Assembly (NCBI RefSeq): GCF_006175995.1
Contig: NZ_VDMB01000019.1
Coordinates: forward strand, 1 to 64,000
Direction of reading: 5' to 3'
Length of the DNA: 64,000 nt
Source of the DNA: Desulfobotulus mexicanus
GTDB lineage: Bacteria; Desulfobacterota; Desulfobacteria; Desulfobacterales; ASO4-4
The notes beneath the pieces were generated by a model, which saw only the letters and a program-made list of their open reading frames with translations, made no database searches and was not told where the DNA came from. The translations under genes and the position numbers were made by a program. This document shows, in pieces, positions 5,976 through 16,265 of this stretch. Position 1 is the first letter of the stretch. Every line of letters starts with the position of its first letter.

Positions 5976-8286
5976 AAATACTATGGAAAAACCAGATATG
6001 GATGAAGCTCTTGCCCCGAAAATTCTCATTGTGGATGATGAGGAAGTAAACCGGGTGATCCTTGAAATTCTTTTGAGCAAAAAGAATTTCATCACCCTTT
6101 CCGCCGCATCCGGTGAAGAGTGCATACAGAAGGCTGAAAGAGAAGCTCCCGACCTCATTCTTCTGGATATCATGATGCCTTTTATGGACGGCTTTAAAAC
6201 CTGCGAAAAACTTAAAGCCAATCCCAGCACAAGGGATATCCCCGTTATTTTCCTTTCCACACTTACGGACAGCAAAAATAAAGCCATGGGTATTGAAATC
6301 GGCGGGGTGGATTATCTGAACAAACCCTTTGACGGAGCTGAGCTTATGGCAAGGCTCCGCCTTCACCTGACCCTGCGCAGCCAGAAAAAACAGCTCCGGC
6401 GCCATGCAGAAATTCTGGAAGAAACCGTAACAAAAAGGACCCTTGAACTGAGCCGGGCGGAAAGGGCTTTACACCATAGCTACGAGCAACAGAACATTCT
6501 TAATCATCTGCTCCAGCTTTCCCTTAAAGAGCAATCCCTTGAAGAAATTCTACAGCAATGCCTTGAAAGTATACTTAAGATATCCTGGCTGAGGCTCCAG
6601 CAGCGGGGCTGTATTTTTATGTCTGATTTGAAAAATGGCACCCTCCAGCGGGTGGCCCACAACCCCTGTTCCGATGCCATCCGGGCGACCTTTTCCGAAA
6701 AAAGGGGCGTGGGAATCTCCCTCTGCCCCCAGAAGGCATGCATTGCAGATATCCACACAGCCAACCCCTTCCCACAAAACCTGATGCAGCACAGCATGCA
6801 TATTTTTGCTCCCATCTGGTCAAGATCCCAGCCCCTGGCCCTGCTCTGTCTGCACCTTGAAAATTCTGAACCCCTTTCCAAAAACAAAAAAATCTTTCTT
6901 GCATCCATTGCCAGCACCCTTATGCAGATTATTCTGCACAGACAGGCAGAACAGCAGGCCCGCCACAATCTGATGCACGACCCCCTCACGGGACTACCCA
7001 ACCGAACCTTTCTCATCCAAAGGCTCAAAACAGAAAGCCTTGCAGCAAAGGACACTCCGGATTCATGCTTTGCCCTTGCCCTGCTGAGCCTGGACCACTT
7101 CAGAAACTTCAACGAAAGCTTTGGTTTCGGGCTGGGTGACAGCCTTATCCACGCCACGGCGGAAAGACTTCTGGAGGAAAAAGGGACGGAAGAAAATGGG
7201 CTGGGATATGAAGTATGGCACCTTGGAGCAGACACCTTCGCCCTTTTGTTCACAAGGCTTAAAAACCGGGAAAGCGTAATCCGAAGCACAGAAAAAATAC
7301 TGGACAGGATACGACAGCCTGTTTCCATCAAAGGCCACCTCCTCCATGTGACAGCCAGTGCTGGCATTGCCTTTTCAGATTTTTCCTATAAAAAAAGCTC
7401 CGAAATTCTGCGGGATGCGGATACAGCCATTCATCAGGCAAGGATTCTGGGCAGGGACAGACTGTTGGTCTTTACGCCAAAAATGCATGAAAAAGCCAGA
7501 GGTGCCATGGAAACCCTGATGGATCTGCGTCAGGCCATGGAAAAGGATGAGCTAATACTTTTCTATCAGCCCATCATCCAGATTCCCGACGAAAAAATTA
7601 CAGGCGTTGAAGCCCTGATCCGCTGGAAACATCCCCACAGGGGTATGGTAAGCCCTGCTGAATTCATCCCCATTGCCGAAGAAACAGGACTGATTCTGTC
7701 CATGGGAAAATGGATACTGAAAAAAGCCTGTACGGATATAAAGGCATTGAATGACCTTCATCCGAAAAAACCCATTACCTTAAGTGTCAATCTCTCTTCA
7801 AAAGAATTTGCCAATACAGAACTTTTTGAACAGATCCGCCAGACCCTGGCAGAAACCGGTTTTCAGCCCGAACTTCTGAAGCTTGAAATAACGGAAAGTG
7901 TGGTCATGGGCAATGCCGAAGCAGCTGTCATAACCCTTAATAAACTAAAGGAAATTAAAGTCCGTATCTCCATTGACGACTTTGGCACGGGCTATTCCTC
8001 CCTTTCCTACCTGCACCGTTTCCCGGCAGACAGTCTCAAAATCGACCGTTCCTTTATCCGGCGCATGCATCTGGGGGGAGAAAATCTGGAAATTGTCCGC
8101 ACCATTGTAACCTTAGGCAAAGCACTGAAAATGGAAATCACCGCCGAAGGCGTGGAAACCGCCGAAGAGCTTGCCATGGTGCAGGAACTGGACTGCCCCT
8201 GCGTGCAGGGATATTATTTTGCCAGACCCATGCCCCTGAAAGAGCTGAATACTTCACACTTTTTTCATCCCTTGATATCAGGATAG
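5965..8286 (+). CDS. Response regulator with degenerate GGDEF and intact EAL domain (c-di-GMP phosphodiesterase)
   Basis: I place the start at ATG 5965 because AAGGAG lies seven bases upstream; an in-frame ATG at 5932 has no such site. The 773-residue product has a receiver (MPFMDG, Asp68), a coiled coil, a GAF-like region (about 190-340), a GGDEF domain (about 345-505) and an EAL domain (about 515-765). The GGDEF signature reads LGADTF, so cyclase activity is unlikely. The EAL domain keeps EALIRW (Glu549), KLEITES, DDFGTGYSSL and AEGVET, as expected of an active phosphodiesterase that hydrolyses c-di-GMP to pGpG. It is co-translated with the preceding Hpt-ended hybrid kinase, which probably controls it. 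A PilZ-motAB cluster 17 kb away could respond to the resulting c-di-GMP level. Confidence 0.93.
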   Translation: MRPENTMEKPDMDEALAPKILIVDDEEVNRVILEILLSKKNFITLSAASGEECIQKAEREAPDLILLDIMMPFMDGFKTCEKLKANPSTRDIPVIFLSTLTDSKNKAMGIEIGGVDYLNKPFDGAELMARLRLHLTLRSQKKQLRRHAEILEETVTKRTLELSRAERALHHSYEQQNILNHLLQLSLKEQSLEEILQQCLESILKISWLRLQQRGCIFMSDLKNGTLQRVAHNPCSDAIRATFSEKRGVGISLCPQKACIADIHTANPFPQNLMQHSMHIFAPIWSRSQPLALLCLHLENSEPLSKNKKIFLASIASTLMQIILHRQAEQQARHNLMHDPLTGLPNRTFLIQRLKTESLAAKDTPDSCFALALLSLDHFRNFNESFGFGLGDSLIHATAERLLEEKGTEENGLGYEVWHLGADTFALLFTRLKNRESVIRSTEKILDRIRQPVSIKGHLLHVTASAGIAFSDFSYKKSSEILRDADTAIHQARILGRDRLLVFTPKMHEKARGAMETLMDLRQAMEKDELILFYQPIIQIPDEKITGVEALIRWKHPHRGMVSPAEFIPIAEETGLILSMGKWILKKACTDIKALNDLHPKKPITLSVNLSSKEFANTELFEQIRQTLAETGFQPELLKLEITESVVMGNAEAAVITLNKLKEIKVRISIDDFGTGYSSLSYLHRFPADSLKIDRSFIRRMHLGGENLEIVRTIVTLGKALKMEITAEGVETAEELAMVQELDCPCVQGYYFARPMPLKELNTSHFFHPLISG

Positions 8287-8387
8287 TTATTGAAAGAAGC
8301 ACTCGGGAATGATGATTTTACTAAAAAAAGTTTTTCCGGGTACAAATCCATGAAAAAACTTATCCGTCCTTCACCGGGAGAAGTCTA

Positions 8388-10427
8388 ATGAATTTTAAAA
8401 ATAAAAATCCCGAAAAAAACCATATCGAGCCGCAGATTACAGAACTGAAAAAGGAAATAGACCTTCTCAGGGAAGAGCTGGAATACCGGAAAAGGAAAAT
8501 GGAAGACATGTGTCAGGACAAAGCCCACCTCATTGCCCTGATCGAACATGCACCGGATATAATCATGCGCTTTGATGAAAACTGCCGGCATCTGTTTGTC
8601 AACCGGGCCATTGAAAAGGTGGTTCCCATGGCTGCAGCGGATTACATCGGCAAAAGCCACAGGGAACTTGGCTTTCCCGAAAAAACCTGTTCTTTCTGGG
8701 AATACAACTTAAAAAAAATCTTTCTTACGGGTGAGCTGCAGGAAAGGGAAACCCCCTATGCGGGTATCCACGGCACAAGGATTTTCAACTGGCGTCTCAT
8801 TCCAGAATATGAACATTCCGGCAAAATCAGCAGTATTCTCTGCATGGCAAGGGATGTTACGGAGCAACGCCTTGCAGAACAAAGCTATGCAAGGCTTTTT
8901 GACACCATGCCCTATGGCTTTGCCCTCCATGAAATGGTTTATGATGAGAAAGGAAAGGCCCTTGATTATCGTTTTTTAAGCGTCAATCCGGCCTTTGAAA
9001 ACCTGACTGGCCTGAAAGCTGATGATATTCTTGGCAGGCGCGTGCTGGATGTACTACCCGATACCGAAAAAGAATGGATAGACCGCTACGCTAAAGTTGC
9101 TGCCGGAGCACCGCCCATATACTTTGAATCCTTTTCAAAGGCCTTAAATAAATATTTTGAGGTCACAGCATACGGCTCCGGAAAAAAACGCTTTGCCACC
9201 CTTTTCCATGATGTTACAGAGCGAAAGAATACTGAAAAGGAGCGGGAAAAACTTAAAAGCCTGCTGGCCCAGTCCGATAAGCTCAATGCCGTGGGCCGCC
9301 TTGCAGGAGGTGTGGCCCATGACTTCAATAACAAGCTCAGTGTAATAACAGGATACACGGAATTTGCCCTGGACAGAACAGATCCTTCCGATGAAATCTA
9401 TGCTGATCTGGAAGAAATCATCAAAGCTACCCGAAGTGCCACGGAACTGACCCGACAGCTCCTTACCTTTGCACGCAGGGAAAAGGCCAACCCGCCTAAA
9501 ATCATTGATGTCAACGATGTCATCACATCCATGCTGAACATGCTCAGGAGGCTTATAGGTGAAAACATTGAGCTTCTATGGCAACCGGAAAAAGATATAT
9601 GGGCTTTACACATGGACCCTTCCCAGCTGGATCAGATTCTGATTAACCTCTGCGTCAATGCAAGGGACGCCATAGGAAAAAAGAATGGCCGCATAACCAT
9701 TGAAACCAGTAATACAAACCTGCAATATCCCTCAGAAGCAGCAGAATCCGATATCTTCCCCGGAGACTATGTCAGTATAAACATAACGGACAACGGCTGC
9801 GGTATGGGCAAAGAAACCATGGAACAGATCTTTGAACCCTTTTTCACCACAAAAAAAGATGGGGAAGGAACTGGTCTGGGCCTTGCTACGGTTTATGGTA
9901 TTGTGCGACAGAATCAGGGCATCATAAGGGTTTACAGTGAAGTAGACATGGGAACAGCTTTCGGTATTTTTCTTCCAAGTTACAAAAACCATGAACCAGA
10001 ACCGGAATTAATACCCACTGCCCAAACCGAAGAAAGGGGAATGGAAACCCTGCTTCTGGTGGAAGACGATCCGGGTCTTCTGGCCCTGAATCAGACCATG
10101 CTGGAACGCCTTGGATATCAGGTACTGCCTGCCGCACTACCCGAAGAAGCCCTGAACATTGCCGATTCCTTTGAAGGAGAAATAGCCATGATGCTCACGG
10201 ATGTGGTCATGCCGGGAATGAACGGTCCTGAACTCTCAAAAATACTTACGGAACGCTTCCCAAAAATAAAAAGCCTTTTCATGTCCGGTTATTCCCAGAA
10301 CATGATCCTTCAGCAGGGCTTTGCCAACGGGAATATCGGTCATTTTATCCAGAAGCCCTTTTCTTTTAAGGATCTAAGCCTTAAAGTCAGACAGATTCTG
10401 GATACAGAAAGGTCTTTGGATGAATAA
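8388..10427 (+). CDS. Hybrid histidine kinase (2 PAS, HisKA, HATPase, receiver)
   Basis: This is a 679-residue soluble kinase preceded by GGGAGAAG at good spacing. A short coiled coil is followed by PAS domains at about 45-165 and 170-285. The kinase core has [14 protein letters not shown] (His311), the form typical of NtrB-like and deltaproteobacterial kinases, an ATPase domain with DNGCGMG and GTGLGLATV, and a C-terminal receiver with [11 protein letters not shown] (Asp605) and IQKPF. The first PAS domain closely resembles the single PAS of the kinase at 13519 (shared GKSHREL, RLIPEY and surrounding residues), so the two probably arose by duplication and may sense the same cue. It overlaps the following Hpt gene by eight bases. 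That pair plus the response regulator at 10797 can form a complete kinase-receiver-Hpt-receiver relay. Confidence 0.92.
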
Positions 10428-10800
10428 AAAAATAATTAACACGGATTTCCATCCTGTTTTTGCCAAGGAAGCCATGCTGAACCGCTTTATGAATGATGCG
10501 GAGATAGCCTGCAGCGTAGCAGTAGTTTTTCTTACGGATATGCCAAGGCAGATTTCCCTGCTTCAAAGGGCAGTGGAAACCAAAGACCTTGAAACGGCCA
10601 CAAGACTTGCCCACAGCATGAAGGGGGCTGCCATGAATGTGGGCGGATTGGGTTTCGCAAAACTTGCAGCGACAATGGAAAAAGATGGCCGGGAAAAAAG
10701 AATCACTGCCATGGAAGAAAGGCTGACGCAGATGAAAAATGATTTCCATGACCTCAAAAAAAACCTGATAGAAACCTTTAATATTAAGGATATTCCATGA
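10420..10800 (+). CDS. Stand-alone histidine phosphotransfer (Hpt) protein
   Basis: This 126-residue all-helical protein carries the Hpt motif LAHSMKGAAMNVGG, with phospho-acceptor His65. It also has the usual trailing helix ending in MEKDGRE. Hpt proteins shuttle phosphate between the receiver of a hybrid kinase and a second receiver. It begins inside the last codons of the upstream hybrid kinase (8-base overlap) and its TGA overlaps the ATG of the downstream response regulator. All three are therefore likely translated together and act in one relay. Nothing looks damaged. Confidence 0.88.
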   Translation: MNKKIINTDFHPVFAKEAMLNRFMNDAEIACSVAVVFLTDMPRQISLLQRAVETKDLETATRLAHSMKGAAMNVGGLGFAKLAATMEKDGREKRITAMEERLTQMKNDFHDLKKNLIETFNIKDIP

Positions 10801-11423
10801 AGATACAGGACCGCTGCATCCTTGTGGCTGAAGATGACCTTACCTCCCGCACGGCTCTGCAGCTCACCCTTCAGAAATGGGGATATGTCCCCCTTATTGC
10901 CGAAGACGGAGAAGCCGCCTGGGAGATTCTACAGGGCAAAGAAGCTCCCCGTCTGCTTATTCTGGACTGGATGATGCCAAAGCTCCATGGTATTGATCTT
11001 CTGCGCCGCATACGTTCCATGAAACAGGAATCCTCTTTTTACATTATCATGCTGACCACAAGGGACAGCACCGAAGATATAATAGAGGGTCTGGATGCAG
11101 GAGCCGATGATTACCTCACCAAGCCCTTCAACCCCGGAGAACTACGGGCACGGGTCAATGTGGGCTTCAGGGTACTGGATCTCCAGGAAAGTCTGGAAAA
11201 AAGAATTCTGGAATTACAAAAGGCCGTTGAACACATTCAGACCCTGCAGGATATTCTTCCCATCTGCTCCTTTTGCAAAAAAATACGCAACGACACAGGC
11301 TACTGGGATCAGGTGGAATCCTATATCGCAAAACACTCAAAAACCCGGTTCAGCCACGGCATATGCCCGGACTGCCTTCAGCAGCATTACCCTGAGTTTT
11401 CCGATGAGGTGCTGAAAAAATAA
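10797..11423 (+). CDS. Response regulator with Cys-rich (zinc-finger-like) C-terminal tail
   Basis: This 208-residue protein has a full receiver at residues 1-120 (EDDLTSR, LDWMMPKLHG with Asp57, LTKPFNPGEL). A coiled-coil linker leads to a tail with CSFCKKIRNDTGYW and, about 33 residues on, HGICPDC. The two CxxC pairs suggest a small metal-binding knuckle. The same tail is familiar at the C-terminus of regulators and PAS proteins in related anaerobes, but its function is not known to me. It has no DNA-binding domain, so output is probably by protein contact. Its start overlaps the stop of the Hpt gene, the likely phosphate donor. The aldehyde oxidoreductase gene follows after 13 bases and may be on the same transcript. 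Confidence 0.88.
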   Translation: MKIQDRCILVAEDDLTSRTALQLTLQKWGYVPLIAEDGEAAWEILQGKEAPRLLILDWMMPKLHGIDLLRRIRSMKQESSFYIIMLTTRDSTEDIIEGLDAGADDYLTKPFNPGELRARVNVGFRVLDLQESLEKRILELQKAVEHIQTLQDILPICSFCKKIRNDTGYWDQVESYIAKHSKTRFSHGICPDCLQQHYPEFSDEVLKK

Positions 11424-11436
11424 AAAAGGCCTGTTC

Positions 11437-13296
11437 ATGAAAAAAATTCGCATCCTGGATATCAATCTTGGCAACCTTAAATTTAAGGAAACAGAACTCT
11501 CTTTCGAGGAAAGCCTTATGGCTCTGGGCGGCATGGGCCTGAACGCCCGTATCCTAACCAGAGAACTTTCCCCGGAAACAGACCCCCTTGGTCCGGACAA
11601 TATCCTGATCTTTTCTCCGGGACTTCTTGCGGGTTCCGGCTTTCCAACGGCCTCCCGCACGGAAGCCTCCGCCCTTTCCCCGGCCACCTCAGGCTTTGGC
11701 ACCTCCAATTCAGGGCTTTTTTTCGGTGGGGATCTGAAAAGAACAGGCTATGACAGTCTTATCTTCCGGAGCCGGGCCGAAAGCCCCGTCTACCTCAGCC
11801 TGATGGATGGCAAAGTTCTTCTACTGCCAGCCTCTGAAATATGGGGAAAAGATGCCTGGGAAAGCATTGACTGGCTGGATGCCCGTTACCCTGAATCTTC
11901 CATCGCCCTCATCGGCCCTGCCGGAGAAAAGGGTGTCCGTTTTGCATCCATACAGAACCGCCGCCACGATGCCTGGGGCCGAACCGGGCTTGGTGCTGTC
12001 ATGGGTTCCAAAAACCTCAAAGCCATTGTCATCCAAAGCCGGGAGAAAATCAGGGCTGCCGAGACGGAAAATTTCAGAGAAATCCGCAGAAAAGCCACCC
12101 GGATCATCAAGGCTTCCCGCTATTATGAACCCTTTAAAAAATCCGGAACCCTGGGGGCTTCCCCTGTGTACGGAAAATTTGACGCCCTGCCCACAAAGAA
12201 TTTTTCAGGAGAAGGCATAGCCAGCTGGCCTTCAGACTATGGACACAAACTGCACCAAAAGCATGTCACAGGACGCATGGCCTGTGAAAGCTGCTGGATT
12301 GCCTGCGGCCACATGGTTTCCATAGCCGGAGGAAACTATGCAGGCCAGAAGCTTAAAGCCCTTGAGATCAGCCCCACCATCACCTTCTGTGCCCAGGCCG
12401 GCCTTTCTGTCGAAGACAGTTTCAGGGCCACGGAAATCTGTCAGCGATACGGCATGGACATGCTAAGCGCAGGTGCCACAGCGGCCATGGCTTTTCAGCT
12501 CTTTGAAGAAGGAAAAATCCATACCAGTGATACGGGTTTTCCCCTGATTTGGGGGGACGGGGATGCCTTCTGCCGCCTCCTTGAAGACATGGCCCTGAAA
12601 CGGGGACTGGGCAGTCTGCTGGCAGAGGGTACGGCAAGGGCTGCGGAAAAACTGGGGCATCCCGAAGCAGCCGTACACATAAGGGGCCTTGAAATGCCCA
12701 TGATAGACCCCAGGGGCCGCTGGTCCAGCTACAGCTTCGGTATGCTGACCAATATCCGCGGCGGCGATCACCTGCGCTGCCGAAATCCCTTTGAAAATTT
12801 GCGGGAAAACCTGAAAAGCGAAGATCTCTTCTGGGAAGCTTTCAGGCTGCCCGAAGAAGAATACCTCAAAGCGGACATTTTCCCTGAATCATTGAAAAAA
12901 AAGATTTTTGACTTAGAAAAAAGCAGGGTCTTCCTTCCACTTATGGCCCTATGGTCCGAAGACCTCATAACCCTTTTCAATACCTTTGGTATCTGTATCC
13001 GGCCTCCCATCCTCAATACCATAGGTCCCACCCTTTTATCCGAAACATGCAGATCTTTTACAGGAACTAAAATTTCTCCCGAGGAACTCATGGAATCGGC
13101 CGCCACAAGCTGGAACCTGATCCGGTCCTTCAACCTTGCCTGCGGTGAAAAACCCGGTGCCGCCAACTTTCCAAAACGGTTTTTTTTGCCAGCCCATGGA
13201 AAAAAAGAACTTAGCGAAGAAAAGCTTAAAGAGGTCCTGAAGGCCTATTATACCGCAAGAGGCTGGGATGATGAGGGCAGACCTGAGGTGAAATGA
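11437..13296 (+). CDS. Aldehyde:ferredoxin oxidoreductase (tungsten-pterin enzyme family)
   Basis: The 619-residue product matches the AOR family over its whole length. Visible are the N-terminal LGGMGLNARILTRELSPETD, a pterin-binding-region RTGLGAVMGSKNLKAI (about residue 185), the Cys cluster CESCWIACGH (about 285) for the 4Fe-4S cluster, and GGDHLRCR (about 445), which supplies the distal Cys. Such enzymes oxidise aldehydes to acids in the cytoplasm, reducing ferredoxin, with a tungsten bis-pterin cofactor. The AAGG site 11 bases upstream fits the start. Its position is odd: it follows a response regulator by 13 bases and is flanked by kinases, with no ferredoxin or cofactor genes nearby. 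The substrate cannot be read from the sequence. Confidence 0.9.
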   Translation: MKKIRILDINLGNLKFKETELSFEESLMALGGMGLNARILTRELSPETDPLGPDNILIFSPGLLAGSGFPTASRTEASALSPATSGFGTSNSGLFFGGDLKRTGYDSLIFRSRAESPVYLSLMDGKVLLLPASEIWGKDAWESIDWLDARYPESSIALIGPAGEKGVRFASIQNRRHDAWGRTGLGAVMGSKNLKAIVIQSREKIRAAETENFREIRRKATRIIKASRYYEPFKKSGTLGASPVYGKFDALPTKNFSGEGIASWPSDYGHKLHQKHVTGRMACESCWIACGHMVSIAGGNYAGQKLKALEISPTITFCAQAGLSVEDSFRATEICQRYGMDMLSAGATAAMAFQLFEEGKIHTSDTGFPLIWGDGDAFCRLLEDMALKRGLGSLLAEGTARAAEKLGHPEAAVHIRGLEMPMIDPRGRWSSYSFGMLTNIRGGDHLRCRNPFENLRENLKSEDLFWEAFRLPEEEYLKADIFPESLKKKIFDLEKSRVFLPLMALWSEDLITLFNTFGICIRPPILNTIGPTLLSETCRSFTGTKISPEELMESAATSWNLIRSFNLACGEKPGAANFPKRFFLPAHGKKELSEEKLKEVLKAYYTARGWDDEGRPEVK

Positions 13297-13518
13297 TAAA
13301 ACACTTTCAGCTTGTTTGTCCAAGGCCAGATATGGTATAGGTAAAAAATATACATAAAGACCTAAAGACCACAATATAAAATGACCGCACACAAAAAACT
13401 TTCTGCATCCTTTTCTTCTTATTGATTCTCATAAACCCTGTTTCTTACTGAACGTCCCGTTAGCTGGCTTACAGGGTGGCCCATATACCACATGCAGATT
13501 CCATTCCGGAGAATTACA

Positions 13519-15024
13519 ATGTCCATATTTTCAGCCCATCCAAAGATTATGATAGTGGATGATACCCCAGCCAACCTCAATCTTCTTCAGGAGATCCTTC
13601 AGGAAGAAGACTATCATATCATGGCCTTTCCAAGGGGCTCCATGGCACTGGCCGCTGCTGCTAAAAACCCTCCGGACATGATACTTCTGGACATCCGCAT
13701 GCCGGAAATGGACGGCTTTGAAGTCTGTCGCCGCCTTAAGGAAATACCCTCACTGAAGGATGTTCCCGTTATTTTCATCAGTGCCCTCAGTGACACCCAA
13801 GACAAGCTGAAAGCCTTTTCCACAGGGGGAGTGGATTATGTCACCAAACCCTTTCAGCCCGAAGAAATCCATGCCCGCATCAAAACCCACCTGCACCTTC
13901 AGAAACTTTTACGCGAAAGTGAGAAGAGACAGGAGGTGCTCATAGGAGAACTGCCAGATATTGTCATACGCTTTGACGAAAACGCCCGCCATCTTTTCAC
14001 CTCGAAAAACATCCATGAACTCTACGGACGGAGTGCGAAAGAATACAGGGGCAAATCCCACAGGGAACTGCTTTTTCCGGAAGACATCTGCGATTTCTGG
14101 GAGGACGCCGTAAAAACAGTATTTAATACAACTAAAACACTGGAAATGGAAAAAACCTTTACGGGTAAAGGAAAGCCTGCCATCCACAACCTGAGGCTGA
14201 TTCCCGAATATAACATTTACGGCAAAACACAGTCAGTCCTTGCCATAAGCAGGGACATAACTCTCTGGAAAATAGCGGAAAAAACTCTGCTTCAGGCCAA
14301 AGAGGCCGCAGAAGCGGCAAACCTTGTCAAGTCTGAATTTCTGGCCAATATGAGCCATGAACTAAGAACACCCTTAAACGGCATTCTCGGAGTCATGAAC
14401 CTGCTACAGGGCACAAACCTTGAACAGGACGATGCGGAAATTCTAAAGCTTGGCATAAATTCAGCACAGAGGCTGACCAATCTCCTCACTGATATCATGG
14501 ACTTTTCAACCTTGGATGCAAAGAGAGTAAGGCCCTCAAAGGAAAGTTTTGATCCGTTACAGGTTTTCAAAACCCTCGAAGGACTTTTCAGCCTTACGGC
14601 CATGGAGAAAAAAATCCAACTGGAAATACAAACAGATCCAGCCACACCTTCCTTTCTGGTGGGAGACGGTCCCCGCCTCCGCCAGATTCTCTTCCATCTT
14701 ATGGGCAATGCCTTTAAGTTCACAAAATCCGGAACCATCCGGCTGGAAGTGCTTCACCTGTCTCCTTTAAAAAATGAGAAAATCCATCTTCTGTTTATCC
14801 TTTCCGATACAGGCATAGGCATCAACCAGGATCTTCTGGAACAGATCTGGGAACCTTTCAGACAGGCGGATGGTTCTTCCACACGGAGCTATGAAGGGGC
14901 AGGACTGGGCCTTGCCCTTATCCGAAGGCTTGTTCTGATGCTGAACGGCACCCTGTGTATGGACAGTATTCCCGGAAAGGGTACGGAAATTTTTATGCTT
15001 CTGCCCTTTGACCGCAGTCACTAA
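13519..15024 (+). CDS. Receiver-PAS-histidine kinase (receiver-first kinase)
   Basis: I choose ATG 13519 because GGAGAA lies just before it; an earlier in-frame ATG at 13492 lacks a site. The 501-residue protein starts with a receiver (VDDTPANLNLLQEIL, LDIRMPEMDG with Asp58, VTKPFQPEE). It continues with one PAS domain (about 135-250), HisKA with NMSHELRTP (His280) and HATPase with GAGLGLALIRR. With the receiver in front of the kinase, it probably receives phosphate or a conformational signal from another kinase before acting. The PAS domain is a close relative of the first PAS of the kinase at 8388. No membrane segment is seen. The next gene, a periplasmic binding protein, begins 51 bases later. 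Confidence 0.9.
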   Translation: MSIFSAHPKIMIVDDTPANLNLLQEILQEEDYHIMAFPRGSMALAAAAKNPPDMILLDIRMPEMDGFEVCRRLKEIPSLKDVPVIFISALSDTQDKLKAFSTGGVDYVTKPFQPEEIHARIKTHLHLQKLLRESEKRQEVLIGELPDIVIRFDENARHLFTSKNIHELYGRSAKEYRGKSHRELLFPEDICDFWEDAVKTVFNTTKTLEMEKTFTGKGKPAIHNLRLIPEYNIYGKTQSVLAISRDITLWKIAEKTLLQAKEAAEAANLVKSEFLANMSHELRTPLNGILGVMNLLQGTNLEQDDAEILKLGINSAQRLTNLLTDIMDFSTLDAKRVRPSKESFDPLQVFKTLEGLFSLTAMEKKIQLEIQTDPATPSFLVGDGPRLRQILFHLMGNAFKFTKSGTIRLEVLHLSPLKNEKIHLLFILSDTGIGINQDLLEQIWEPFRQADGSSTRSYEGAGLGLALIRRLVLMLNGTLCMDSIPGKGTEIFMLLPFDRSH

Positions 15025-15074
15025 AAAAGCCTGAAATCACGACACGGGCACAAAGAGCATTTGCGGAGGGATGT

Positions 15075-16265
15075 ATGAAAAAAATCCCATGGTTTGCATT
15101 TATTCTGGCATTCTGCTTTTTTACCGGCAGCCTTAAAGCACAAACCCCTTCCCTCATAATTGGTATAGATGCGGATATGAGTGCAGCATCGTCCATGGCG
15201 GGACAAAGCATTTACAGGGGTGCCATGCTGGCCGTATCGGAAATCAATGAGGAGGGCGGGTTGCTGGGAAAGCCCCTTCGCCTTGATGTTCTGGACCACA
15301 GGGGAAATCCGGCCCGCAGCATCAACAATATAACTAAATTCTCCGAAACTTCAGGTCTGCTGGCAGTGATCGGTGGTAAACACACCCCTGTAATTCAGGA
15401 AGTTTTGCCCCTTATCCACAGGGAAAAAATTATTTTTCTCATTCCATGGGCAGCAGGTACCCATCTGGTGGATAACGGATATGAACCCAATTATGTATTC
15501 CGTGTTTCTGTCCGTGATGAATACGCAGCCAAATTTCTTGTCAGCAACCTGCTTCAGGCCGGGTACAAAAAACCGGGAATTCTGTTGGAAAGAACAGCCT
15601 GGGGAAAATCCAACGAAGCCTCCATCCTGAAAACCCTGTCTGGAAAAGACATCCATCCGGCAGGTATATACTGGTTTCACTGGGGCGTTTCCGACTTGGA
15701 AAACCAGCTGCGTCACCTGCAAAAAAAGGGGGCAGACAGCCTGATTCTCGTATCCCAGCCCAGAGAAGGAAAAACCCTTCTTCTATCTATGGCAGAGCTG
15801 CCTGAAAACCAGCGTCCCCCCATCCTTTCCCACTGGGGAATTGCAAGTGCGGATTTTCCCGGCATGACCGGTGATCTGATTTTGGAATCTGAACTTTTTT
15901 TTCTCCAGACCTTCTCCTTTCTAGACCCGCCTTTCCCTGACCGGGCTGACCACCTTTTCCGTTCATACAAAAAAGCATTCCCGGAAATTCAAAAACCCGA
16001 AGATATACCCGCACCCGCAGGCCTTGCCCATAGCTATGACCTTGTGCATCTACTGGCAAAGGCCGTGACAAAAGCAGGAACTGACGAAAGGGAAAAGATC
16101 CGGGATGCGCTGGAAAACCTCGAATTCCATGAAGGCATCATGAAAAATTACAGTCCTCCATTTACTCCAAAACGCCACGATGCCCTTGGACCGGAAGATT
16201 TCCGCATTGCCTGCTTTACCGAAAAAGGCAGCATCATTCCCTGCACCATGACCAAAAAGCCCTGA
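15075..16265 (+). CDS. Periplasmic ligand-binding protein, branched-chain amino acid (LivJ/K) type
   Basis: This 396-residue protein has a signal peptide (MKKIPWFAFILAFCFFTGSL, cleavage likely after KAQ). It is followed by a type 1 periplasmic-binding fold: IGIDADMSAASSMAGQSIYRG, GGLLGKPLRL and AVIGGKHTPV. A strong GGAGGG precedes the ATG. Homologues deliver amino acids, amides or aromatic acids to ABC permeases, but no permease or ATPase gene is nearby. The next gene, 55 bases on, is a membrane-bound hybrid kinase with an extracytoplasmic loop. This suggests the protein serves as a ligand receptor for that kinase, in the manner of LuxP with LuxQ, rather than in uptake. That link is inference from gene order. 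Confidence 0.88.
   Translation: MKKIPWFAFILAFCFFTGSLKAQTPSLIIGIDADMSAASSMAGQSIYRGAMLAVSEINEEGGLLGKPLRLDVLDHRGNPARSINNITKFSETSGLLAVIGGKHTPVIQEVLPLIHREKIIFLIPWAAGTHLVDNGYEPNYVFRVSVRDEYAAKFLVSNLLQAGYKKPGILLERTAWGKSNEASILKTLSGKDIHPAGIYWFHWGVSDLENQLRHLQKKGADSLILVSQPREGKTLLLSMAELPENQRPPILSHWGIASADFPGMTGDLILESELFFLQTFSFLDPPFPDRADHLFRSYKKAFPEIQKPEDIPAPAGLAHSYDLVHLLAKAVTKAGTDEREKIRDALENLEFHEGIMKNYSPPFTPKRHDALGPEDFRIACFTEKGSIIPCTMTKKP

Follow-up and report, generated by a model that had tools for sequence, protein, structure and literature searches.

An aldehyde oxidoreductase-family gene behind a predicted phosphorelay in Desulfobotulus mexicanus, kept in one genus relative and absent from another

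The window analyzed here is the stretch of 64,000 nucleotides at positions 1 to 64,000 of Desulfobotulus mexicanus contig NZ_VDMB01000019.1, in which a gene of the aldehyde oxidoreductase (AOR)/WOR family closes a + strand run of four genes. The run consists of a hybrid histidine kinase (8388-10427) with two PAS domains, HisKA, HATPase_c, and a receiver; a stand-alone Hpt phosphotransfer protein of 126 amino acids with an AHSMKG motif (10420-10800; Pfam Hpt, 1e-12); a 208-amino acid response regulator composed of a receiver, a linker, and a Cys4 tail (10797-11423; Pfam Response_reg, 2.5e-27); and the AOR/WOR-family catalytic subunit of 619 amino acids (11437-13296). Kinase and Hpt genes overlap by 8 bases, and Hpt and regulator genes by 4 bases. 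The run holds a complete phosphorelay gene set, i.e., a kinase core with receiver, an Hpt domain, and a receiver regulator, and the three genes are a predicted phosphorelay. Response_reg is the sole Pfam match in the regulator, with no DNA-binding output domain detected by Pfam. An earlier, sequence-only reading of this DNA had given the range 10420-13296, which covers Hpt, regulator, and AOR together; AOR itself begins at 11437. It correctly placed the regulator directly after Hpt, and the AOR start 13 bases after the regulator stop on the same strand.

The AOR gene is intact. The whole protein is covered by AFOR_N (7.8e-64; 215.5 bits, cut-off 29.8) and AFOR_C (8.7e-81; 272.4 bits, cut-off 27), and it matches the solved structures of Pyrococcus furiosus AOR (1aor, E 1.7e-79) and 9mqx (E 5.1e-86). 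The ligands of a 4Fe-4S cluster, a CxxCxxxC motif plus a distant Cys, are present as C283, C286, C290, and C520. Comparison with the 69% identical ortholog of a genus relative, G002, gives 150, 118, and 331 changes at codon positions 1, 2, and 3, respectively, over 618 codons, with a nonsynonymous divergence (dN) of 0.25 and a synonymous divergence (dS) of 1.78, the latter near saturation. This purifying pattern points to selection for function.

The window protein belongs to an 11-member clade within the family. At E 1e-100 or better, matches were found in 4 of 389 genomes at class level (the window genome, G002, G007, and G038) and in 7 of 395 at phylum level (the window genome and six others), and a Peptococcaceae contig (L005) adds one further member. 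The 11 sequences, chosen through search matches, form one clade with a FastTree support of 0.999; for the first five, IQ-TREE support was 100/99. All 11 members keep the four cluster ligands. With an extra Cys ligand of the BamB type in mind, the alignment was also examined for further shared cysteines, and it has no other Cys column common to them.

Thr243, Glu313, Tyr427, and His448 (P. furiosus numbering) are conserved in most AORs according to a review (PMC12096430), whose proposed mechanism employs Glu313 and Tyr427. In our alignment, the equivalent second-shell positions of the window protein are Thr238, Ser312, Ile423, and His445: the Thr and His are kept, Glu313 and Tyr427 are replaced, and the protein does not carry the residue set of AOR sensu stricto. 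The same divergence runs through the clade, where Ser or Thr takes the place of Glu313 in 11/11 members and Tyr427 is absent from 11/11; in the same alignment, 27 of 31 family proteins outside the clade have Glu at that column. A clade-wide extra stretch at approximately residues 467-487 is absent from most other aligned family members, and fixed clade positions include P451, D480, and R522. Because Glu313 and Tyr427 are replaced, the label "aldehyde oxidoreductase" is unproven for the clade, an AOR/WOR subfamily with altered second-shell residues. Many clades of the AOR/WOR family are still hypothetical, as stated in the same review, and the 11-member clade may be one of those branches. Another AOR paralog of the window genome (L044 1679-6107, G000:C30) directly follows the gene of an iron-containing alcohol dehydrogenase, with a TetR regulator nearby; the dehydrogenase and this paralog plausibly form an aldehyde-alcohol pair.

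Outside the genus, the clade members stand in a different gene neighborhood. None of the nine has an adjacent receiver or histidine kinase gene, and eight have an adjacent small ferredoxin-like gene, L005 alone being without one; the assignment of these neighbors is by Pfam Fer4 for four of the eight and by motif for the other four, and the G038 contig ends shortly before AOR, leaving one side well readable. Three of the nine (L091-L093) have a regulator and a kinase on the opposite strand, past an acyl-CoA-dehydrogenase-like gene (so called by Pfam in one of the three); these were not counted as adjacent. The sequence-only reading had it that AOR genes usually stand beside ferredoxin genes; that is borne out by the eight clade members, with the qualification that a crude pattern applied to short flanks detected an Fe-S motif neighbor in only 7 of 38 AOR-family loci. 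These 38 distinct loci (40 rows minus two partial copies of the window and G002) were sampled as best hits and not drawn at random, and among them only the window and G002 have a receiver gene within 300 bases of AOR. Neither the window nor G002 has a ferredoxin-like gene beside AOR, and a search of the window genome with the G007 ferredoxin-like partner returned only weak general Fe-S matches, the best at 30 bits.

To follow the regulator-AOR pair within the genus, three genomes were compared, those of the window, G001, and G002. G002 has the same kinase-Hpt-regulator-AOR order as the window, with 55 bases between regulator and AOR; directly after the AOR stop, a CHASE-PAS hybrid kinase starts. 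G001, the species closest to the window, keeps kinase, Hpt, and regulator but lacks AOR, on a contig that is continuous there. Both of its flanks are also kept, the downstream one with the next kinase, a binding protein, and a third kinase (81-84% identical), and no AOR ortholog was found elsewhere in G001, where the best AOR-family match is a 32% identical paralog. Thus, the proposed neighbor conservation held in G002 and failed in G001. The relay proteins of the window are 81% (kinase), 69% (Hpt), and 88.5% (regulator) identical to those of G001, and 60%, 47%, and 73% identical to those of G002; G001 and G002 share 60%, 51%, and 72%. Since the window relay is nearer to G001 than to G002, a single loss in G001 is the shortest history, and we infer by parsimony that the absence of AOR there reflects one loss.

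Between the window and G001, DNA homology ends at window position 11412 and restarts at 13495, with approximately 280 bases of G001 replacing approximately 2080 bases of the window. The intergenic stretch after AOR (13297-13518, + strand) is homologous to the stretch directly 3' of the regulator in G001: window 13297-13491 scores 53 against the latter, compared with a shuffle mean of 23.1, and 0 of 200 shuffles reach that score. No AOR remnant was detected in the post-regulator stretch of G001 (score 33 versus a shuffle mean of 30.1; 49 of 200 shuffles). A 49-base G001 junction stretch, picked after inspection, reaches a score of 27 when compared with the final 100 bases of AOR plus 20 (equalled in 30 of 2000 shuffles), but against the whole AOR gene the match is not significant (187 of 500 shuffles). 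The 7-base repeat GATGAGG occurs on the + strand at the end of the regulator gene (11403-11409) and near the end of AOR (13270-13276); the feature is weak, and its use by the deletion in G001 is put forward as a suggestion only.

Regulators related to that of the window are also found outside the genus. Matches at E 1e-45 or better occur in 23 of 194 genomes of the order; three of these belong to the genus, and the remaining 20 contain 24 listed places. In several of the fetched loci other than L117 and L124, a kinase with receiver or Hpt precedes the regulator, as in the window. Using tblastn, AOR was found near the regulator in none of 23 fetched stretches (23 of the 24 places, from 19 genomes), some of them shortened by contig ends (L122 to approximately 320 bases after the regulator, L134 to approximately 900), and the G002 control was positive. 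At the 24th place (L081 in G016), no listed gene matches AOR.

The C-terminal tail of the regulator (11265-11375, + strand) carries the pattern C157xxC160 ... H187xxC190xxC193, and all five of these residues are invariant in 13/13 aligned tails. The sequence-only reading had called it a metal-binding tail; the Cys/His pattern is confirmed, and metal binding is plausible from that pattern. The tail has no Pfam relative and nothing meaningful among solved structures, where the best match has an E value of 0.041 over 21 positions. A search of ten genomes with the regulator gave at least 27 matches covering the tail alone, in G003, G004, G007, G010, G016, and G055, and the tail-bearing proteins include PAS proteins. 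Elsewhere in the window genome, a PAS protein bears a second clear copy, and a weak fragment was also seen. Since many unrelated signaling proteins carry the tail, and since it is intact in the regulator of G001, a genome without an AOR ortholog, it is, judged by its distribution, a general signaling add-on that is not there for AOR. We also considered, and rejected, the co-occurrence of Cys-tail and AOR genes on one contig each in G016 and G055, where distances of approximately 3.5 and 6 kb and intervening genes separate the two, so that they are not pairs.

Between regulator and AOR lie only 13 bases (11424-11436, + strand), with an AAGG 7 bases 5' of the AOR ATG as a possible ribosome site. 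Promoter and terminator scans found no match inside this gap, and the gap shows no unusual fold (z-score −0.56). Across 8200-15200 no + strand terminator-like site was found, and the only + strand promoter-like site, in a scan for sigma-70-type consensus only, is at 9943, far from the gap. Given the short gap, the lack of a terminator-like site, and the distance of the sole promoter-like site, it is likely that AOR is cotranscribed with the relay. The sequence-only reading had proposed that its view would fall if AOR lay apart from the regulator in relatives and a promoter or terminator separated the two genes here; AOR does lie apart outside the genus, but no such element was found between the two genes, so that only one half of this condition holds.

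Beyond AOR are further kinases, a periplasmic binding protein, and a FIST-domain protein. The nearest of these is a receiver-PAS-HisKA-HATPase_c kinase (13519-15024, + strand), 84% identical in G001. Its listed start is ATG 13492; ATG 13519 has a better ribosome site, with GGAG upstream, and is probably the true start. Altogether, window positions 2892-23192 make up a signaling run of approximately 20 kb with five kinases, a receiver-GGDEF-EAL protein, the periplasmic binding protein, and the FIST protein, within which AOR is the only clear metabolic enzyme. Directly 5' of the relay kinase, both genus relatives have a gene for a methyl-accepting chemotaxis protein (L080 8105-10129; L040 12889-14919), and at the corresponding position the window shows nothing but a short gap (8287-8387). 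Gene gain and loss thus affect both ends of the cluster.

Our favored account, which we hold to be probable, is that AOR is cargo in a signaling operon, gained ahead of the genus split and lost a single time, with shared expression and no catalytic or sensing partnership. In the genus ancestor, the gene for an AOR/WOR-subfamily catalytic subunit would have come to sit behind the kinase-Hpt-regulator relay, and it is probably transcribed together with it. The enzyme is most likely an oxidoreductase that uses a tungsten (or molybdenum) bis-pterin cofactor and a single 4Fe-4S cluster. Since the cluster ligands are present and a ferredoxin-like gene stands beside AOR in the relatives, it would hand its electrons to a soluble ferredoxin encoded elsewhere. 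The relay does not require AOR, as G001 keeps kinase, Hpt, and regulator without the AOR gene, and the link between the two would be shared expression only. Some observations weigh against this account. The pair survives in two species despite approximately 27-53% residue divergence of relay and AOR, and AOR shows a purifying pattern; in G002 it is enclosed by signaling genes, a position that a pure passenger need not hold; and the genus sample is three genomes.

A rival account is regulatory coupling, in which the relay would sense a substrate, for instance an aldehyde or an organic acid, and AOR would be among its outputs, kept in the operon for joint production with its sensor. The position kept in the window and G002, the placement between signaling genes in G002, and the tight gap without a terminator match all agree with this, but G001 retains the relay without AOR, none of the 23 related regulators has AOR beside it, and a regulator without a Pfam DNA-binding domain probably does not switch the operon on its own. 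We therefore regard coupling as unlikely, and the earlier proposal that redox or aldehyde metabolism feeds the relay is left unsupported by the G001 and order-wide regulator loci. A more elaborate form, in which a clade enzyme with different tungsten chemistry produces or consumes the signal that the relay reads, enzyme and sensor making one metabolic sensing unit, seems to us highly improbable. It is also rather improbable that the genes are independent neighbors, with AOR under a separate promoter and the short gap a matter of chance: the 55-base gap in G002 and the restriction of the promoter scan to one consensus type would allow it, but the 13-base gap, the lack of a + strand promoter or terminator match nearby, and the identical gene order in two species argue otherwise. 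Very little probability attaches to the idea that the Cys4 tail acts as a sensor of metal or redox state on behalf of AOR, or replaces the absent ferredoxin-like subunit as its electron partner. All 13 aligned tails share the four Cys and the His, and a gene for a Cys-tailed protein adjoins AOR here where one for a small Fe-S protein does in clade relatives; however, the tail-only matches in six other genomes, its presence on PAS and other proteins, and its integrity in G001 without AOR leave that part of the sequence-only reading unsupported.

A search of titles and abstract openings found no report of a phosphorelay operon that contains an AOR gene. Were the coupling true, a tungsten enzyme would be tied to a phosphorelay; on the operon cargo account, the locus would show an enzyme gene riding in a signaling operon and then lost while the relay stays. 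Of more lasting interest is the AOR/WOR subclade in which second-shell residues have changed, and its reaction lends itself to testing.

Compared with P. furiosus AOR (1aor) and 9mqx, the window AOR has AFOR_N and AFOR_C at full length, all four cluster Cys, and the Thr243 and His448 positions, and it differs from P. furiosus AOR in the Ser at Glu313, the Ile at Tyr427, and the extra stretch near 467-487. It is the same type of catalytic subunit as that of the multi-subunit bacterial AOR AorABC from Aromatoleum aromaticum (PMC6365974), and its non-genus clade relatives, eight of nine beside a ferredoxin-like gene, resemble the AORs with a polyferredoxin subunit (PMC12096430). Unlike both of these systems, no ferredoxin-like or FAD subunit gene adjoins AOR in the window or G002. 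The relay itself matches known hybrid kinase-Hpt-response regulator phosphorelays in its kinase with receiver, stand-alone Hpt, receiver-only regulator, and overlapping genes, and departs from them in the enzyme gene that stands behind the regulator in two of the three genus genomes.

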